A DNA stretch of 64,000 nt from an uncultured bacterium. Lineage in GTDB: Bacteria; Planctomycetota; UBA1135; GCA-002686595. The DNA is taken from assembly GCA_938075305.1 (NCBI GenBank), contig CALJGV010000017.1, forward strand, positions 1 through 64,000. The letters are read 5' to 3'. Positions within the stretch are counted from its first letter, which is position 1; the number at the start of each line of letters is the position of its first letter. Position numbers and translations under genes: made by a program. The notes beneath the pieces are model-generated. The model was not told the DNA's origin. It did no database searches and saw nothing but the letters and a program-made list of their open reading frames with translations. Below, piece by piece: positions 32,563 to 42,531 of the stretch.

Positions 32563-34041
32563 TCAGGCCAGCAGGGCCTGGACGACCTCGCCGTGCACGT
32601 CGGTCAGCCGGTGGTCCCGGCCAGCGTGGCGGAAGGTGAGGCGGTCGTGCTGGATGCCCAGCAGCTGGAGGATCGTCGCGTTCAGGTCGTACACGCTCAG
32701 GGGATCCTCGACGATGTTGTACGAGAAGTCGTCCGTGGTGCCGTAGGTCTGTCCGGTCTTCACGCCGGCGCCCGCCATCCACATGGAGAAGCAGCGCGGG
32801 TGATGGTCCCGCCCGTAGTTCTCCTTGGAGAGGGCCCCCTGGCAGTAGGTGGTCCGGCCGAACTCGCCGCCCCAGATGACCAGGGTGTCCTCGAGGAGCC
32901 CCCGGTTCTTGAGGTCCTGGATCAGCCCGTAGGCGGGCTGGTCGATGTCCCGGCAGTTGTTGCCCAGGTCATTGGGCAGGTTGCCGTGCTGGTCCCAGCC
33001 CCGGTGGTAGATCTGGACGAAGCGCACGTCGCGCTCCACCAGGCGGCGCGCCAGGAGGCACGATGCGCCGAAGGTGCCCGGGACGTTGGCGTCCGGGCCA
33101 TAGAGGTCGAGGACGGACTGGGGCTCGCCGGAGAGGTCGGTGAGCTCCGGCACCGCGGACTGCATGCGGAAGGCCATCTCGTACTGCTCGATGCGCGCAC
33201 GGATCTCGGGGTCGCCGACCTCGTCGGCGCGCTTCGAGTTCAGCTCGGAGACGAGGTCGAGCATCTCCCGGCGCTTCTTGCGGTCCACCCCATCGGGGTC
33301 GTTCAGGTACAGCACCGGGTCGCCGCCCGCGCGCAGGGCGACGCCCTGGTGTTCGGAGGGGAGGAAGCCAGAGCCCCACAGGCGCTGGTACAGCGCCTGG
33401 GCCTCCCTGCGCCCCTTCCAGCGCGGCGTCATGACCACGAAGCTCGGCAGGTCGCGGTTCATGGACCCCAGCCCGTAGGAGAGCCAGGCGCCGAAGCTAG
33501 GCCGGCCGGGCTGCTCGGACCCCGTCTGCATGAACGTGATGGCGGGGTCGTGGTTGATGGCGTCGGTGTGGACGCTGCGCATCACGCACAGGTCGTCCAC
33601 CATCTTGGCCGTCCACGGGAGCGTCTCGCAGACCTCGGTCCCCGCCTCGCCGTGGCGCGCGAAGTCGAACTTCGAGGGAGCGATGGGGAAGCGCGTCTGG
33701 CCCGAGGTCATCGTGGTGATGCGCTGGCCGTTACGGATGGAGTCGGGGAGCTCCTGGTCGAACATGTCCCGCAGGCGCGGCTTCCAGTCGAAGGTCTCGA
33801 ACTGGCTGGGCGCGCCGGACATGCACAGGTAGATGACCCGCTTGGCCTTGGGGGCGAAGTGGGGGACACCCGGGAGGCCGCCGATTCGGTCGCCGATGGC
33901 CGGCGCCGCGAGAGCGCGCGGGCCGAGCACGGAGGCGAGGGCGGCCGTGCCGATCCCGGTGGCGGTCCTGCCGAAGAACTGGCGGCGGGTGAGGTGCGCG
34001 GCGCGCTCGGCGATGGGGGAGTCGTGGAGGGGGTCTTGCAT
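32563..34041 (-). CDS. DUF1501 protein with Tat signal
   Basis: 492 residues from the ATG at 34041, which shares one base with the upstream stop (TGATG). The twin-arginine signal '[21 protein letters not shown]' is followed by the DUF1501 core: '[21 protein letters not shown]', '[14 protein letters not shown]', '[13 protein letters not shown]', '[10 protein letters not shown]', '[10 protein letters not shown]' and '[19 protein letters not shown]'. The fold is related to alkaline-phosphatase/sulfatase-like hydrolases; activity is not established. In planctomycetes DUF1501 genes almost always pair with a DUF1549/DUF1553 gene, as here. Export folded through Tat suggests a bound metal. Confidence 0.95.
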
Positions 34042-37000
34042 CAGTTCCTCGTCAGGACCTCGTCCAGGTTCAGGATGGCGCTGGCGGTCAGGGTCCAGGC
34101 CGCGAGCTCGATGGTGTCTGCGTCCACCGGGACCTGGAGGTCTCCGATGGCCACCAGCTCCACGGCGTCGGAGGGGGTCGCCTCGAAGTCCGCGGTGAGG
34201 GAGCGGACCAGCGCTGTGATGCGGTCCGCCTCTCCGCCGGACGGCGCTCGGCTCACGACGAGCTGGAAGAGGTGGTCCGCGCGCTCGCGGTCGGAGGGGC
34301 CGGCCTCGCGCAGGACCCGGGCGGCGATGAAGCGAGCGGCCTCCACGTAGGTGGGGTCGTTCAGCATGACCAGCGCCTGGAGCGGCGTGTTCGTACGCTC
34401 CCGGCGGACGGTGCAGGCGTCGCGCATGGGCGCGTCGAAGGTGGTCAGGTTGGGGGGCGGCGCGGTGCGCTTCCAGAAGGTGTAGAGCGACCGGCGGTGC
34501 AGGTCCCCCACCGGACCCTGGGCGTAGCGCACCGTGTTGCTGCCGCTGTAGCCCACGGCGAACCAGATCCCCTCGGGCTGGTAGGGACGGACGCCCGGGC
34601 CGCCCATGGTCTCGTCGAGGAGTCCGGCCACGTGCAGGGCCTGGTCCCGGAGGACCTCCGCGTCGAGGCGGAAGCGCGAGCTCCGGGCCAGCAGGCGGTT
34701 GTCGGGGTCGACCTCGAGCTCGTTGGGCCGGACGTTGGAGTCCTGGCGGTAGGCGCGGCTGAGCACCAACCGCTCGTGCATGGCCTTCATGTCCCAGCCG
34801 CTCTCCACGAAGGTCACGGCGAGCCAGTCCAGCAGCTCCGGGTGACTCGGCCACTTGCCCTGGTTCCCGAAGTCGTCCGGGGTGGCGACGATGCCGGTCC
34901 CGAAGAAGTGCTGCCAGGCGCGGTTGACCCAGACCCGCGCGGTGAGCGGGTTGTCGCCCGAGACGATCCAGCGCGCGAGGCCCAGGCGGTTGCGTGGTGC
35001 GTCCGCGGGGAGGGGCGGGAGCGCCGAGGGGGTCGCAGGCTCAACCACCTCCCCGAGCTTGTCATAGGCTCCGCGCATCAGGACATGGGCGGGTCGGGGC
35101 TCGGAGCGCTCCTCGGAGACCATGGTGCTGGGCAGCGCCGCCTCGATGGTCGCTCGTTCGGCGGCCAGGGCCGCTCGCTCGTCGAAGGCCGCGGCCCATG
35201 CCCCGGCGTGGCGGCGGCGCCAGAAGACGCGCGTCAGGTCACGGGTCGCCTGGGTGTGGTCGGCAAGCGGCGTCTGCATCGCGAGCTCGATCGCCGCGGG
35301 GAGACCGTCCTCGCTCCCGCCGTCCACGAGGCGCCAGGCGAAGCCGCCCGCGCCGCCGGTGTTGACCACCTTCAGGACGAGCTCGTTGTCGCCGGCCTCG
35401 AGGGAGAGCTCGACCCGGTCCTGGTCGATCTTGACCCCGCGAGGCACGCGGTTGGAGTGCACGAGCTCGCCGTTGAGCCAGGCCTCGACGCCGTCGTCGC
35501 TGCCCAGGAGCAGCTCGATCCTGCGGGCCTCACGGGCCTCGATGTGCTGCACCAGGAAGTGCACGCCGAGCCCGCTCTCGAACAGGTGGCGGCGACCCTC
35601 GGAGTACTCGGGGTGGGCCGTCCACGGGACGCCGGGCGCTGCCTCGCGGGAGAGGTCCACGCCGCCCGCGATCTGCTCCTGGGGCGGGTGCGGCTTGTCG
35701 TAGAGGCCCGCGGCGGCGGAGGCGGGGAAGTGGGCGCGGCGCCAGGTGCCCGTGCGCAGGGCCGGCTCGAGGTCGCCGGAGCGGCGGACCGCGAGGCGAA
35801 AGCGGGCCAGGCCGTGCTCGGAGTGGACGGAGCCGAAGACCAGCTTGACCCGCAGCTCGGTGCCCTCGGCCCAGCCGAAGCCGCGGGTGGGAATGAGTAG
35901 CGCCGACCGGTCGCCGGTCTTGCCGAGGCCGGCCCAGCCGCTCGCGGAGGAGGGGTCGAGGACACCGGTGATCGGGAACCGGTCCTGGCTGTGGGTGGCG
36001 ACGGCGGCGCCGAGGTCCACGGGCTCAAGCTCCTCGGGTCGGTCCGCCGGGGCGGCGAGGACCTCCACGGAGGTGAGCACGAAGTTCTCGTTGCTCGCGC
36101 GGCCGGGCAGGTTCTGTCCCTCGGGGACGAGCGCGTCGAGCCGCAGCCCCTCGATCTGCCCCGGCGGCACCCAGGCGTCGATGGTGTAGGTGGTGTTGTG
36201 GGGGTTCGCTCCGCCCGCGGTCACCACGCCGCTCCCTGGCTCGACGGTGAGCTCGACGCCTTCGGTCGCGGCGACCTCTTCGGGGATGACGGTCTTCCAG
36301 CGGCCCAAGACCTGGCGGGAGGTGGCCTCGATCCAGCGACGCTCACGCTCGTCGAGCTCGGGGTTGGGTCGATCCAGCTCCGCGGTCAGCGCGGCGGTCG
36401 CGACGGAGATCTCCTCGAGCCGCCCCGCCTGTTCGGGGAGCGGGACGCGCAGGAAGGGCACCGGGTTCTCGATGTTCCGGTCGGTCGCCTCCTCGGTCAT
36501 GGAGTTGAAGAACCCGTACATCGCGTAGTAGTCGCGCTGGCTGATCGGGTCGAACTTGTGGTCGTGGCACTGGGCGCACTCGAGCGTGAGGCCGAGGAAG
36601 ACCTTGGCCGTGGTGTCGGCGCGGTCCTTGGCGTAGATCGACAGGTACTCCTGCGCGATCATGCCGCCCTCGGCGCTGGTGGGGTTGCAGCGGTTGAAGC
36701 CTGACGCGACCTTCTGATCCAGGGTCGCGTTCGGCAGCAGGTCGCCGGCGAGCTGCTCGATGACGAACTCGTCGAAGGGCTTGTTGTCGTTCAGCGCCCG
36801 CACGACCCAGTCCCGGTACGGCCACATGGACCGCCGGTTGTCCAGGTGGAGGCCGTGGGTGTCGGCGTAGCGCGCCGCGTCCAGCCAGGTCCGCGCCATG
36901 TGCACCCCGTAGCGCTCGGAGGCCATCAGCCGCTTCACCTCGGCGCGGTAGGCGGCGTCGAGCCCGCGGAGCGCCGAGTCAGCGTGGAACGCGGCCGACT

Positions 37001-37583
37001 CCTCCGGGGTCGGGGGGAGGCCGGTGAGGTCCAGGCTGACCCGACGCTGGAGCGTCGCGGCGTCGGCCTCGGGCTGGAACGCGAGCCCGGCGGCGGCCAT
37101 GGGCCCGTCGAGGAGCGCGTCGATGGCGTCGCCGTCCTCTCCACCCTGCGCGACCGTCGGCTTCACCGGGCGTTGGAAGGACCAGTGCTCGTCCCAGGGC
37201 GCGCCCTCCTCGATCCAGCGCCGGAGCACCGCGCGCTCCGACTCGGAGAGCGACTTGCCGGACCGCTCGGGCGGCATGAGGTCGTCCTCGAATTCGGGGG
37301 CGATCCGGTACAGCAGCTCGCTGTCCTCCACGTTCCCTGCGACGACGGCGTGGCCGCCCGTGGAGAGCGCCGCGGTGATCCCTTCGAGGGAGTCCACGCG
37401 CAGGCCCGCCTCGCGTGTCTCGGGGTCGGGGCCGTGGCACTGGAAGCACTTGTCCGAGAGGATCGGGCGGACGTCCCGCGCGAAGTCCACGGGCGCCTTG
37501 TCCTCGACTCGGTCTTCAGGTCCGGCGGAGCCAGCGGGCCATGCGGTGAGGGCGAGGACCGTGAAGGCGAGGGTGGCGCTCAT
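34041..37583 (-). CDS. Planctomycete cytochrome c-like PSCyt1/DUF1549/DUF1553 protein
   Basis: 1180 residues from the ATG at 37583 with an N-terminal signal peptide. Order: PSCyt1 domain (~30-125) with haem motif CFQCH and the '[23 protein letters not shown]' region; DUF1549 (~145-385) with '[14 protein letters not shown]' and a second CxxCH in '[12 protein letters not shown]'; a central beta region (~440-830) including a PA14-like '[16 protein letters not shown]'; and DUF1553 (~880-1130) with '[20 protein letters not shown]', '[30 protein letters not shown]'. The family is restricted mainly to Planctomycetes and Verrucomicrobia and is linked to polysaccharide degradation in genomes; its chemistry is unproven. 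It is transcribed ahead of the DUF1501 and Sel1 genes. Confidence 0.95.
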
Positions 37584-37798
37584 GACCCCTAGTCTATGTC
37601 CGGAATGAGGACCCGCAGGGGATTCCACCGAGCCCCGTGGGGGAGAGCCTCGCCCTGAGTCCTCCCGGCGGAGGGGCTTGAGACAACGGGCCTCGGTTGG
37701 ACCCCATCGAGCCGCGGGTGGGCGTCAAGGAACGGGAGGACCCGACCGATGTTCGAGGCACCCCCGGCAACGCCGCCCGCCCCAGCCAGGAACTCCCC

Positions 37799-38875
37799 AT
37801 GCTCCAGTACACCTCTGCCATCGTCGCCGTTCTCCTGCTGGCCTCCTGCCAGGGGACATCCAGCAGCCCCTCGACCACCGCGCACCCGGTGGAGACAGGC
37901 GAACCCTCGAGGATCGAGCTGGAGCAGCAGATCCAGGAGCTCGAGATGCGACTGGCGGAGGCAGAGGCCAGGGCGGCGCTCCTTGAGCGGTCGAGCCTGG
38001 CGTCGCAGGTCGACTCGGCCTCGGGCATCCAGCTCGCCGCTCGAATCGAGGGGCTGAGCCGAACGGTGGAGCAGCTGCGGTTGGCCACGCTGGCGGGGGC
38101 CACCGCACAGCCGGTGGAGGCCAGCCATGGGATCGAGGTGGGCGCTGGCGTCGACTCACTCAAGGGAGCGCTGGCGGCTCTCGATGAGCAGTGCGCTCTG
38201 CACTGCGAGAACATCGCGAATCTCGGGGTCCCCGGCTACAAGCGGCGCAGGCCGCTGCCGGTCTCCAGCGCGGGAGCCCTGAACGACGTCCGTCACCCGC
38301 GGTCCGCTGGCGTGCAGCTGGACATGACCCAGGGCGCCCTCAAGCGCACGGGGAACTCCCTCGACCTCGGCGTTGAGGGAGCTGGCTTCTTCGAGATCGA
38401 GCTCCCCAACGGCGAGCAGCGCTACACCCGGAACGGCGCGCTCCGGATGGACGTGAACGGCCGCCTCGTGACCGCCGAGGGCTACCTGCTCAGCGACCAG
38501 GTTCTGATCCCCCCGGACAGCCAGGGCATCTCGATCTCCGCCGACGGCGAGGTGTACTCCCTCGGTGAGGGCAACATCCAGAACCAGATCGGCGTGATCC
38601 GCCTGTACGTCTTCCGCAACCCCTCGGACCTGAAGGGCGAGAGCAACGGCTACGCCGCCACGACCCTGTCGGGGGATCCCGTCGCGGTCCAGCCCACCAC
38701 CGCGGGGGCGGGCTGCCTCTTGCAGGGGTACATCGAGCTCGCCAACGTGGGCCTGCAGACCGAGCTGATCGATCTACAGCAGGCGGAGAACGACGCGGTC
38801 GTGATCCGCTGCGCCCTGGCGACCCAGGGGATCCTCACGGTCCCCAGGGCACCGGTCCAGCCGCCGGCCCGCTAG
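37799..38875 (+). CDS. FlgG-like flagellar-rod-fold lipoprotein
   Basis: The ATG at 37799 has AGGA seven bases upstream and starts a lipoprotein signal ending LLLASC. Of 358 residues, ~40-100 form a coiled coil (IELEQQIQELEMRLAEAEARAALL region). From ~125 the sequence is a flagellar rod/hook protein: 'HCENIANLGVPGYKRR' (the NxANxxTxGYKR motif), 'LDLGVEGAGFFEIELPNGEQRYTRNG', 'VNGRLVTAEGYLL', 'ISISADGEVYSL', 'IGVIRLYVFRNPSDL', 'GCLLQGYIELANVGLQTELIDL'. FlgG builds the distal rod and normally has no lipid anchor or coiled coil. No other flagellar gene is in the window. A repurposed periplasmic tube or envelope spacer is a possibility. Confidence 0.85.
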   Translation: MLQYTSAIVAVLLLASCQGTSSSPSTTAHPVETGEPSRIELEQQIQELEMRLAEAEARAALLERSSLASQVDSASGIQLAARIEGLSRTVEQLRLATLAGATAQPVEASHGIEVGAGVDSLKGALAALDEQCALHCENIANLGVPGYKRRRPLPVSSAGALNDVRHPRSAGVQLDMTQGALKRTGNSLDLGVEGAGFFEIELPNGEQRYTRNGALRMDVNGRLVTAEGYLLSDQVLIPPDSQGISISADGEVYSLGEGNIQNQIGVIRLYVFRNPSDLKGESNGYAATTLSGDPVAVQPTTAGAGCLLQGYIELANVGLQTELIDLQQAENDAVVIRCALATQGILTVPRAPVQPPAR

Positions 38876-40098: not shown

Positions 40099-42531
40099 AT
40101 GCGCTTCTCCACCACACCCCTCCTGCTCGCCGCGCTCGGTGCCGGGTCGTTTCCCGGTACGTCGTATGCCCTCAGCCAGTCGTCCGGGTCCGCGCTCGGA
40201 TCGGGCCCGGCCCTGACCGAGTTCCTCTCCCGGAACGACGACGGGATCGAGGACGAGGATGGCGACCGCGAGGATTGGATTGAGGTCCACAACGTCCCCG
40301 GGGCCGGCGCGGTGGACCTGGGTGGCTGGGCCCTGACCGACGACGCGGGGGAGCTCTCCAAGTGGGTCTTCGAGCCGGGCACGGTGATCCCCGACGGGGG
40401 GTACCTGGTGGTCTTCGCCTCGGACAAGGACCGCAGGGTCCCCACGGGCACGCTGCACACGAACTTCAAGCTCTCGGGCGGCGGGGAGTACCTGGCGCTG
40501 GTCAACCCCGCGGGCACGGTGGTCACCGAATTCGACCCGGAGTACCCGCCCCAGCAGGAGGACGTCTCCTACGGGCTGTCCTTCATCCCCGCTCCGCTGA
40601 GCGTGGAGCGACTCTTCACGGCGCCCACCCCCGGCGGGCCCAACTCCATCGGCGCGCCGCCGCTCTGGGGCGTCACGCATACCCCTCAGCAGCCGACCGA
40701 CGTGGAGGACCTGGTGGTCACGGTGCAGGCGCCGACGACGACCGCGGCGGCGCCCACCGTGGACCTGGACTACCGCGTCATGTACGGGGCGATCCAGACG
40801 GTGCCCATGACCGACGACGGCGTGGCGCCGGACCTGGTGGCGGGCGATGGGGTGTACACCGGGGTGATCCCCGCCGGCGCCAGCGGGGCGGGGGACATGG
40901 TCCGCTACAGGGTCACCGTGGCGGACGGGATCAGCTCGACGGCGCTGCCGTTCTTCCTGGAGCCCCTCGGTTCGCCCGAGTGGTTCGGGACGGTCGTGTC
41001 GGACCCGAGCCACGCAGGGAGCCCCCTGGACGTGTGGGAGTGGTTCGTCCAGAACCCGGGCGCCGCGAACACCGGCACCGGGACGCGCTGCTCCCTCTGG
41101 ATCGAGGGGCGCTTCTACGACAACGTCAAGGTCAACCGACGCGGGCAGAGCTCGGCGGGGTACCCGCGCAAGAGCTACAAGTTCGACTTCAACCCGGACG
41201 ACCGACCGGAGCTGGCGATCTTCGGATCGCCGATCGACGAGGCGAACCTCAATACCCACTGGGCCGACAAGGCCCACCTGCGCCAGTACCTGGGCTACGG
41301 GATGTACCAGGCGGCGGGGGCGCGGGTCTCCGAGTCGTTCCCCGTGCGCCTCCAGCAGAACGGCGAGTTCTACTCGGTCCAGACCTTCGTCGAGGAGCCG
41401 GACCGGTTCTTCCTCGAGCGCGTCGGGCTCGACCCCGACGGCGCCTTCTACAAGATGTACAACCCGTTCACGAGCGGGACCTCCAGCGTCGAGAAGGTGA
41501 CCCGCACCAACGAGAACAACGCGGACCTCATCGCGTTCGTCTCCACCGTGGGGCAGGGCGGCGCGGGGGTGGAGGACTACCTCTTCGACGTGCTCGACGT
41601 GCCGCAGGTGATCAGCTACCTGGTCGGCTGCTGGCTGATCCACGAGAACGACCACCTCCACAAGAACCACTTCCTCTACCGGGACTCGGACGGGGACGGC
41701 GAGTGGCAGTTCATCCCCTGGGACAAGGACCTGACCTGGGGCCGTAACTACAACCCCTCGGGCGGGGTGCTGAACGACCGGATCACCCACAGCCACCCCC
41801 AGTACAGCCACGTGCTGTTCGGGGACAGCCAGCACCGCACCTCGGACAACTTCTGGAACCGGCTCATCAACCGGATCTACCAGAGCCCGCGCTTGAGGGC
41901 GATGTATCTCCGCCGGCTGCGGACGGTGTGTGACGAGCTCCTGCAGGTGCCCGGGACCCCCGCGGCTGAGCTCTACATGGAGGAGCTCGTGAACGAGGCC
42001 TACGCGCTGATGGCGGCGGACGTCGCGCTGGACGAGGCCCGCTGGGGGGTGCCCACCTGGGGGACGCCGCGCAACTTCCAGCAGGCCAAGGATCGGCTGC
42101 TCACGGACTACGTGGCCAACCGGCGCATTCACCTCTACGGGTCGCAGCTGGAGGCCAACGGTGGGCTGGTCCCCGCGGGAGAGTCAGGCCGAAGCCGCCT
42201 GAGGATCACCGCGTTCGACGCCACCCCGGTCTCCGGGAACAACGACGAGGAGTTCCTGGAGATCACCAACGACGCCCCCTGGTCCACCGACCTCTCGGGC
42301 TACCGACTGGAGGGCGGCGTCGAGATGACCCTGCCGCCGGGGACGGTGGTCGAGGCGGGCGGCCGGGTCTTCCTCGCCGCGAGTCCGCGTGACTTCCGCG
42401 CGCGCATCGTGTCCCCGATGGGCGGCGAGGGGCACTTCGTCGTCGGCCCCTTCGACGGCAACCTCGCCCCGGGGGAGACGATCCTGCTCCGGGACCGGGA
42501 GGGACGGGTCAGGGTGCGCGGTCAGCTGTGA
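40099..42531 (+). CDS. Secreted CotH-kinase family protein with lamin-tail-like domains
   Basis: 810 residues with a signal peptide (to ~25). Residues ~38-130 are a lamin-tail-like domain ('LTEFLSRNDDGIEDEDGDREDWIEVHN', in segments, then 'LGGWALTDDAGELSKWVFEPGT'). A linker beta domain precedes the CotH kinase core (~330-620): 'KVNRRGQSSAGYPRKSYKFDF', 'HWADKAHLRQYLGYGMYQAAG', 'WLIHENDHLHKNHFLY' and 'FIPWDKDLTWG' with the catalytic-type Asp. A second lamin-tail-like domain ends the protein (~700-805). CotH proteins are atypical protein kinases that act outside the cytoplasm. The gene is divergent from the secreted protein at 38872 and followed by a hairpin. Confidence 0.9.
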   Translation: MRFSTTPLLLAALGAGSFPGTSYALSQSSGSALGSGPALTEFLSRNDDGIEDEDGDREDWIEVHNVPGAGAVDLGGWALTDDAGELSKWVFEPGTVIPDGGYLVVFASDKDRRVPTGTLHTNFKLSGGGEYLALVNPAGTVVTEFDPEYPPQQEDVSYGLSFIPAPLSVERLFTAPTPGGPNSIGAPPLWGVTHTPQQPTDVEDLVVTVQAPTTTAAAPTVDLDYRVMYGAIQTVPMTDDGVAPDLVAGDGVYTGVIPAGASGAGDMVRYRVTVADGISSTALPFFLEPLGSPEWFGTVVSDPSHAGSPLDVWEWFVQNPGAANTGTGTRCSLWIEGRFYDNVKVNRRGQSSAGYPRKSYKFDFNPDDRPELAIFGSPIDEANLNTHWADKAHLRQYLGYGMYQAAGARVSESFPVRLQQNGEFYSVQTFVEEPDRFFLERVGLDPDGAFYKMYNPFTSGTSSVEKVTRTNENNADLIAFVSTVGQGGAGVEDYLFDVLDVPQVISYLVGCWLIHENDHLHKNHFLYRDSDGDGEWQFIPWDKDLTWGRNYNPSGGVLNDRITHSHPQYSHVLFGDSQHRTSDNFWNRLINRIYQSPRLRAMYLRRLRTVCDELLQVPGTPAAELYMEELVNEAYALMAADVALDEARWGVPTWGTPRNFQQAKDRLLTDYVANRRIHLYGSQLEANGGLVPAGESGRSRLRITAFDATPVSGNNDEEFLEITNDAPWSTDLSGYRLEGGVEMTLPPGTVVEAGGRVFLAASPRDFRARIVSPMGGEGHFVVGPFDGNLAPGETILLRDREGRVRVRGQL

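Follow-up and report, generated by a model that had tools for sequence, protein, structure and literature searches.

Why would a planctomycete carry a protein with the body of the flagellar rod protein FlgG behind a lipoprotein signal, and what would such a protein do? The question is raised by a gene of 358 codons at 37799..38872 (stop codon 38873-38875, forward strand) of the window, the stretch of 64,000 nucleotides analysed here, the gene being identified as an open reading frame and by its NCBIfam matches, with a start common to the other eight genes of its genus. The initial annotation had described a FlgG-like rod protein converted into a lipoprotein, with an N-terminal coiled coil and no flagellar genes around it, and had considered a piece of a remnant or novel tube.

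Domain layout and genomic setting

The FlgG-like character of the C-terminal body was borne out. Both NIANLGVPGYKR and QGYIELANV are found in the protein, which scores 143.7 bits against the FlgE/F/G subfamily model TIGR03506 (cut-off 70.25) and 76.7 bits against the FlgE/F/G D1 domain PF22692 (cut-off 27), and at 143.2 bits falls below the cut-off of 252.75 for the FlgG equivalog TIGR02488. The best match in PDB is FlgG (5wrh_A), over residues 175-334 with an E value of 4.6e-28.

All the features described here lie on the forward strand. A signal peptide at residues 1-16 (37799..37846), assigned by eye, ends with LAS (LLAS) before Cys17 (37847..37849), which is predicted to be acylated, is invariant in 16/16 aligned proteins and is followed by Gln, not Asp, at position +2. 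Behind it lies a stalk of about 100 residues (37850..38149) that is rich in Glu, Ala and Leu and probably helical, then a D0N-like segment at residues 118-150 (38150..38248) ending in NIANLGVPGYKRR, both being delimited by alignment. A short D0-D1 spacer of 26 residues (38249..38326), from which the L-stretch of FlgG is missing by spacer count, leads into the D1 domain at residues 177-312 (38327..38734; Pfam D1 match at residues 192-253), which identity and trees show to be derived from the FlgG of the same clade. A D0C-like segment, diverged and shortened in the alignment, occupies residues 314-345 (38738..38833). The two D0 segments are both recognisable, with 0.24-0.25 identity to the FlgG of the same genome (own FlgG). 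The N-terminal coiled coil is unproven, as a crude test for 3.5-residue periodicity was negative in the two stretches of the stalk examined (p 0.62 and 0.54).

A wrongly called start hiding a normal FlgG N-terminus would have explained the unusual front end. No normal FlgG start was found, with Met1 and the lipobox Cys aligning across all nine same-genus genes, orthologues at 93, 90 and 80% identity using the same Met, and a search of the G073 frame finding no start codon further upstream. Cys17 and Gln18 are invariant in the nine genes of the genus. The lipoprotein signal that had been proposed likewise stands as a prediction. A lipobox LASC was read by eye, and in 21 of the 21 readable N-termini (by eye) a hydrophobic stretch ends with a Cys placed as in a lipobox, the 22nd being lost at a contig end; position -3 is occupied by L or V in 16 of the 21, the window gene included (by eye). 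The lipobox and the Gln at +2 suggest that the lipid anchor is probably in the outer membrane with the protein facing the periplasm, Gln at +2 being only suggestive as an outer-membrane sign.

The window genome (G000; 4.42 Mb in 55 contigs, about 90% complete) was found to encode a flagellum. Genes read as FlgD, FlgE, FlgF, FlgG, FlgA, FlgH, FlgI, FlgJ, FlgK and FlgL lie on contig C11 and genes read as FlgB, FlgC, FliE to FliJ and MotA/MotB on contig C32, with FlhA at an E value of 4.8e-248 and the flagellin family model matching three genes on C32 in addition to FlgL. Family models identified FlgA, FlgH, FlgI, FlgJ, FlhA and flagellin, the other names being read from the sequence. The own FlgG has the ordinary start MIRSLYTAASGMKAQQ and is 68% identical to the window lipoprotein over residues 170-334. 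The window gene does not stand in for a FlgG missing from an operon elsewhere. The lack of flagellar genes around the lipoprotein gene thus holds locally and not genome-wide: none was seen by eye on the neighbouring reading frames of the window or of the other loci examined, an observation that counts against a flagellar role. Of the earlier interpretation, a FlgG-derived predicted lipoprotein away from flagellar genes remains. A remnant flagellum is rejected given the rod, hook and ring genes, FlhA and the three flagellin genes, and a novel tube fares no better given the genes for a working flagellum, the absent L-stretch and D0 segments only 24-25% identical to the own FlgG. The window gene has a correctly called start and is not a solitary remnant.

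The neighbours of the gene in the window are a large protein (34041-37628, reverse strand) in which we read a CxxCH haem-type motif of a kind typical of planctomycetes, and a CotH kinase and lamin-tail-domain protein (40099-42531, forward strand). Searches near the lipoprotein gene found no sigma-70 promoter or terminator, and no upstream motif common to four orthologues stood out by eye. In G071 (L052:5707-9226) and G076 (L050:4426-7782) a gene that fuses an ECF-type sigma factor with carboxypeptidase-regulatory-like domains lies close to the lipoprotein gene, with a second carboxypeptidase-regulatory-like-domain gene between the two in G071; the gene order differs and the association may be due to chance. 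An apparent FlgI-like neighbour in G076 was rejected, since its likeness came down to a single weak pairwise alignment over the signal peptide and no family model matched. In G137, G145 and G146 (L116, L189 and L190) the lipoprotein gene seems to have common neighbours, beta-lactamase-family proteins (by Pfam in G137 and G145) and multihaem cytochrome-like proteins (by family match in G145), with the remainder assigned by eye, and this seems to be a conserved non-flagellar locus. In the own FlgI (L007:3234-4526) about 87 residues, signal peptide included, precede the part that aligns with solved FlgI.

Distribution and relation to the flagellum

A search across the planctomycetes, which the initial annotation had proposed, identified at least 22 lipoprotein-FlgG genes in 16 genomes from four families. 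Nine of these are in the window genus (seven genomes), eleven in seven f8 genomes and one each in f2 (G085) and f99 (G452). The f8 genes were matched by a D1-free profile built from the part in front of D1, stalk and D0N (A2; nine rows), in a search of 154 genomes of the order, the best four f8 matches having E values of 1.5e-20, 2.8e-15, 2.8e-12 and 3.2e-10. A full-length profile (A4; 16 rows) lengthened the list of relatives and was also applied to a sample of 392 genomes of the phylum, from which G452 came; here the best five candidates at most were taken per genome, so that the gene count is a lower bound. Of the 20 matches from the phylum sample, eight weak ones were left out; seven others, also weak, are by eye FlgB-like or unrelated, and that of G041 is FlgB-like. 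In the family (81 genomes), the full-length relatives among the matches listed all belonged to the window genus (nine genes in seven genomes, window included).

The gene tends to occur with the flagellum without being general to it. FlgI and FlgH are present in all 16 carrier genomes, FlgI having been tested in carriers only. Within the order the gene occurs in 15 of the 99 genomes with a FlgG-type match and in none of the 55 without (Fisher p 0.0012), a comparison in which related genomes are not independent and the profile detects the lipoproteins too, G076 being counted through them alone. Some of the 55 have FlgH (e.g. G021, G044 and G047), so not all are non-flagellated. With carriers making up 15 of the 154 genomes, most flagellated relatives manage without the gene, which counts against a role at the LP ring or as a plug, as does the finding that G072 and G074, of the same genus (90 and 82% complete), have ordinary rod genes only and no lipoprotein.

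FlgH was also compared (L007:2604-3224, the own gene on C11; L061-L090, L193, L196-L200, L202 and L203). Of the 29 FlgH of the family that could be read, one (L074) has a strict lipobox, and by eye none of the eight from carriers in other families has, suggesting that most of these planctomycetes seem to have an L ring without a lipid anchor; some Cys within 32 residues before the GSIY-type motif is present in 17 of the 29 family FlgH, so a few lipoboxes are possible. A link between lipoprotein-FlgG and the loss of the FlgH lipid anchor was considered and found no support, the strict lipobox being rare with or without the lipoprotein gene (1/29).

Private D0 helices and a D1 domain from FlgG

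The two parts of the FlgG-like body have different affinities. The D0N and D0C segments of the window protein have 0.24 identity to the own FlgG as against 0.44-0.59 to G071a and G076a, more distant lipoproteins of the genus, while the first part of D1 (D1a, residues 176-265) has 0.86 identity to the own FlgG as against 0.57 and 0.52 to the same two lipoproteins. In small trees of nine lipoproteins and 21 FlgG, the lipoproteins come together in D0 (100/100) behind a very long branch, whereas D1 nests the window clade inside the FlgG of its clade (99/96) and rejects a single lipoprotein clade (dlnL 52.5, p 4e-6). A large D1 tree of 22 lipoproteins and 37 FlgG requires eight label changes, at least six of them by starred branches, and again rejects a single lipoprotein clade (dlnL 348, AU p 1.2e-6). 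In this tree G085 (100/99), G452 (99/97) and G150a (100/86) each join the FlgG of their genome, and the window clade is nested in the FlgG of its clade (100/100). Against a one-to-one pairing, eight of the eleven f8 lipoproteins form a group of their own (93/96) among the f8 FlgG, and G153, G129, G071a and G071b have no settled placement. The D0 tree places all 22 lipoproteins together, weakly (86/40) and on long branches. The large D1 tree was built without 11 of the FlgG rows and without FlgF, and the D0 tree without 12 FlgG rows; of the 21 FlgG loci of the family (L021-L041), 17 were tried and 13 read, five of which were later dropped.

Ranking against 48 FlgG gave the same picture, with the own FlgG coming first in D1 likeness for 13 of the 20 lipoproteins whose genome yielded one, and within the nearest four for 19 of the 20. 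The two lipoproteins of G076, a fragmented genome in which no FlgG was found, were left out of this ranking, and the FlgG of G150 is partial, ending at a contig end. When genome labels were permuted, the true pairing in f8 gave the best mean D1 match of 5040 permutations (best of 720 without G150), and in the genus five of 720 permutations matched as well as the true pairing; the corresponding D0 control is uninformative because FlgG D0 is nearly identical between genomes. Taken together, the stalk and D0 helices belong to the lipoproteins alone, and D1, the outer face of the rod, groups with the FlgG of the same genome or clade.

In keeping with this, FlgG has overwritten D1 on more than one occasion, in recent times in the window clade and in G150. 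Identical tracts shared with the own FlgG gene, of 53 nt in the window gene (from codon 239, 38513..38565, +/-2 nt, forward strand; as long in 4/5000 shuffles), 80 nt in G073 (0/5000), 46 nt in G075 (13/5000) and 104 nt in G150a (2/5000), with p 0.003 or less each, indicate gene conversion in these four genes, and the nesting of the lipoproteins inside FlgG makes FlgG the donor. At the D1 border of G153, amino-acid identity to the own FlgG climbs abruptly from 0.07 to 0.80, dropping to 0.47 after it, with 67/78 fourfold sites of D1 identical as compared with 50/75 to 53/79 between the FlgGs of different genomes; for G150a the corresponding count, against a partial FlgG, is 42/48. The longest-run test for conversion, applied to 13 of the 22 genes, was not significant at p 0.01 in nine of the 13. 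The p value was about 0.02 for G078, G128a and G077 and at least 0.12 for G153, G128c, G146b, G145, G071a and G085, so that for these the likeness of D1 rests on protein identity, and in G153 on synonymous identity. Among the 19 genes compared, the longest identical stretch of DNA came from the own FlgG in only 10, two of these being ties. G085 and G452 could be separate births instead of conversions.

Selection on the lipoproteins was estimated from dN/dS, which between lipoproteins ranges from 0.17 to 0.72 by segment, indicating constraint on the protein. In D1 it is 0.36-0.46 for the lipoproteins (three pairs) as against 0.06 for FlgG (one pair); this weaker constraint counts against a role at the LP ring, and gene conversion can be neutral.

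A further common feature is the spacer between D0N and D1, which is shortened in all 22 lipoproteins to 9, 17 or 25-29 residues (26 in the window protein) as against 43-45 residues in 48/48 FlgG, and is 27-30 residues long in six FlgF. The missing piece matches the FlgG-specific L-stretch of about 18 residues. One study describes a FlgG-specific 18-residue insertion that in Salmonella ties axially neighbouring rod subunits and stiffens the rod (PMC5288503), and another implicates L-stretch residues of FlgG in P-ring formation (PMC8298488).

A proposed rod surface for the LP ring

D1 forms the outside of the rod, and in Salmonella the acidic surface of FlgG is turned towards the LP-ring bore, opposite Lys63 and Lys95 of FlgI (PMC8298488). 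Counting against the LP ring as partner, the equivalents of these rod-surface acids, by our own mapping, are acidic in 15/22 lipoproteins for D109, 17/22 for D154 and 1/22 for E203, an acid at E203 being rare also in the FlgGs of this set.

These features are best accommodated if the lipoprotein is a pseudo-rod, tethered to the outer membrane, that sits in or otherwise engages the LP-ring bore, a reading to which we give a probability of roughly 0.4. The protein would be exported by Sec and acyl-anchored in the outer membrane, with the stalk and then the FlgG-like body in the periplasm, hanging by anchor and stalk near the ring. Its private D0 helices would let it pack with itself and not with FlgG, and without the axial tie of the L-stretch it could form a short stub and no rod, while D1, re-copied from FlgG by gene conversion, would present the same outer surface as the rod. 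Since the inside is the lipoprotein's own and the outside comes from FlgG, the partner would be the LP-ring bore (FlgI/FlgH), which meets FlgG D1 from outside.

Many planctomycetes alternate between swimming and sessile cells. The likeliest use of such a pseudo-rod might be as a plug that closes off rings whose flagellum has been lost, for instance at the switch from swimmer to sessile cell, as filling a ring that has lost its rod would be the simplest job to fit all the features, and gene conversion would keep plug and rod alike in shape for the same ring; guiding ring assembly would be a less likely use. In relics of ejected flagella in gamma-proteobacteria, a density has been reported that plugs the P-ring aperture at the former place of the rod. 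Its authors could not identify it and took it not to be a T3SS substrate; they named rod proteins as candidates but favoured a yet undiscovered protein (PMC6424402). That the lipoprotein is the planctomycete counterpart of this plug, entering the LP-ring bore with the D1 surface of the rod when the flagellum is lost, is a more tentative proposal, and a doubtful one. A literature search for flagella ejection in planctomycetes found nothing.

The strongest competitor is an exapted envelope protein with no flagellar role, in which D1 is a handy beta-domain kept FlgG-like by neutral conversion. The lack of flagellar neighbours by eye, the patchy distribution and a D1 dN/dS above that of FlgG would all be expected of such a protein. 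We nonetheless consider it unlikely, given FlgI and FlgH in every carrier, the absence of carriers among the 55 genomes without a FlgG-type match and the replacement of the lipoprotein D1 by that of FlgG in distant lineages, where a neutral process would be expected to cease after divergence. Somewhat harder to sustain is a guide or decoy for ring assembly, whereby a rod-like surface on the outer membrane captures FlgI/FlgH and aligns or limits the LP ring. The same mosaic and co-occurrence that fit a plug fit this function, and where a strict FlgH lipobox is as rare as found here another anchor near the L ring could be useful; however, lipobox-free FlgH is common in relatives without the gene, and the L-stretch, whose residues PMC8298488 implicates in P-ring formation, is missing from all 22 lipoproteins.

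Improbable, in our judgement, are repeated independent births, in each of which a duplicate of FlgG would have acquired a lipoprotein signal and shed the L-stretch with no conversion taking place. The D1 tree has the form that this history predicts, and G085 and G452, on long and poorly placed D0 branches, may be separate births. Yet homology between the genus and f8 extends to the D1-free part (E 1.5e-20), all 22 D0 segments group together, if weakly, the identity of G153 to its FlgG rises abruptly at the D1 border with high synonymous identity, and in the window clade the identical tracts lie inside an already established gene. A non-lipidated, N-terminally extended FlgG isoform entering the rod through the flagellar exporter would account for the retention of FlgG-like D0N and D0C and for the five of 21 genes in which lipobox residue -3 is neither L nor V (by eye), and is very improbable with a Cys behind a hydrophobic stretch in 21/21 N-termini, the L-stretch missing and D0 diverged.

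The tethered pseudo-rod would be a rod component that has left the flagellar exporter for the lipoprotein pathway, and whose private inner domain and repeatedly copied outer domain would mark the surface that must match the ring. It makes testable which faces of FlgG the LP ring reads and what seals the outer membrane after a flagellum is shed, the plug having been left unidentified in PMC6424402. No paper on a lipidated FlgG was found in full-text literature judged from titles and the starts of abstracts, with subscription journals mostly outside its coverage, and as far as this search reached lipoprotein-FlgG is an undescribed class of flagellar paralogue.

Among known systems the closest is FlgG itself, the distal-rod protein (TIGR02488; Salmonella structures 5wrh and 7cgo), with which the window protein shares D1 and recognisable D0N and D0C; it differs in the lipoprotein signal and stalk in front, the absent L-stretch and the diverged D0, and its gene scores below the FlgG cut-off and lies outside the flagellar clusters of a genome that has a separate true FlgG. 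FlgF, the proximal-rod protein, has a spacer of similar length (27-30 residues in the six compared), but the own FlgF is only 29% identical to the window protein (residues 105-330) and D1 is far closer to FlgG; the D0 part of the lipoproteins may stem from either FlgF or FlgG. FlgH, the L-ring lipoprotein, which has an outer-membrane lipid anchor in Salmonella, is unrelated to the FlgG-type lipoprotein. It offers the likeness of a flagellar protein lipid-anchored in the outer membrane, whereas the planctomycete FlgH examined here are mostly without a lipobox. The relic plug is described only as a density in gamma-proteobacteria with no sequence for comparison, but its place in the P-ring aperture where the rod had been and its delivery by a route other than the T3SS would both fit a lipoprotein of this kind (PMC6424402).
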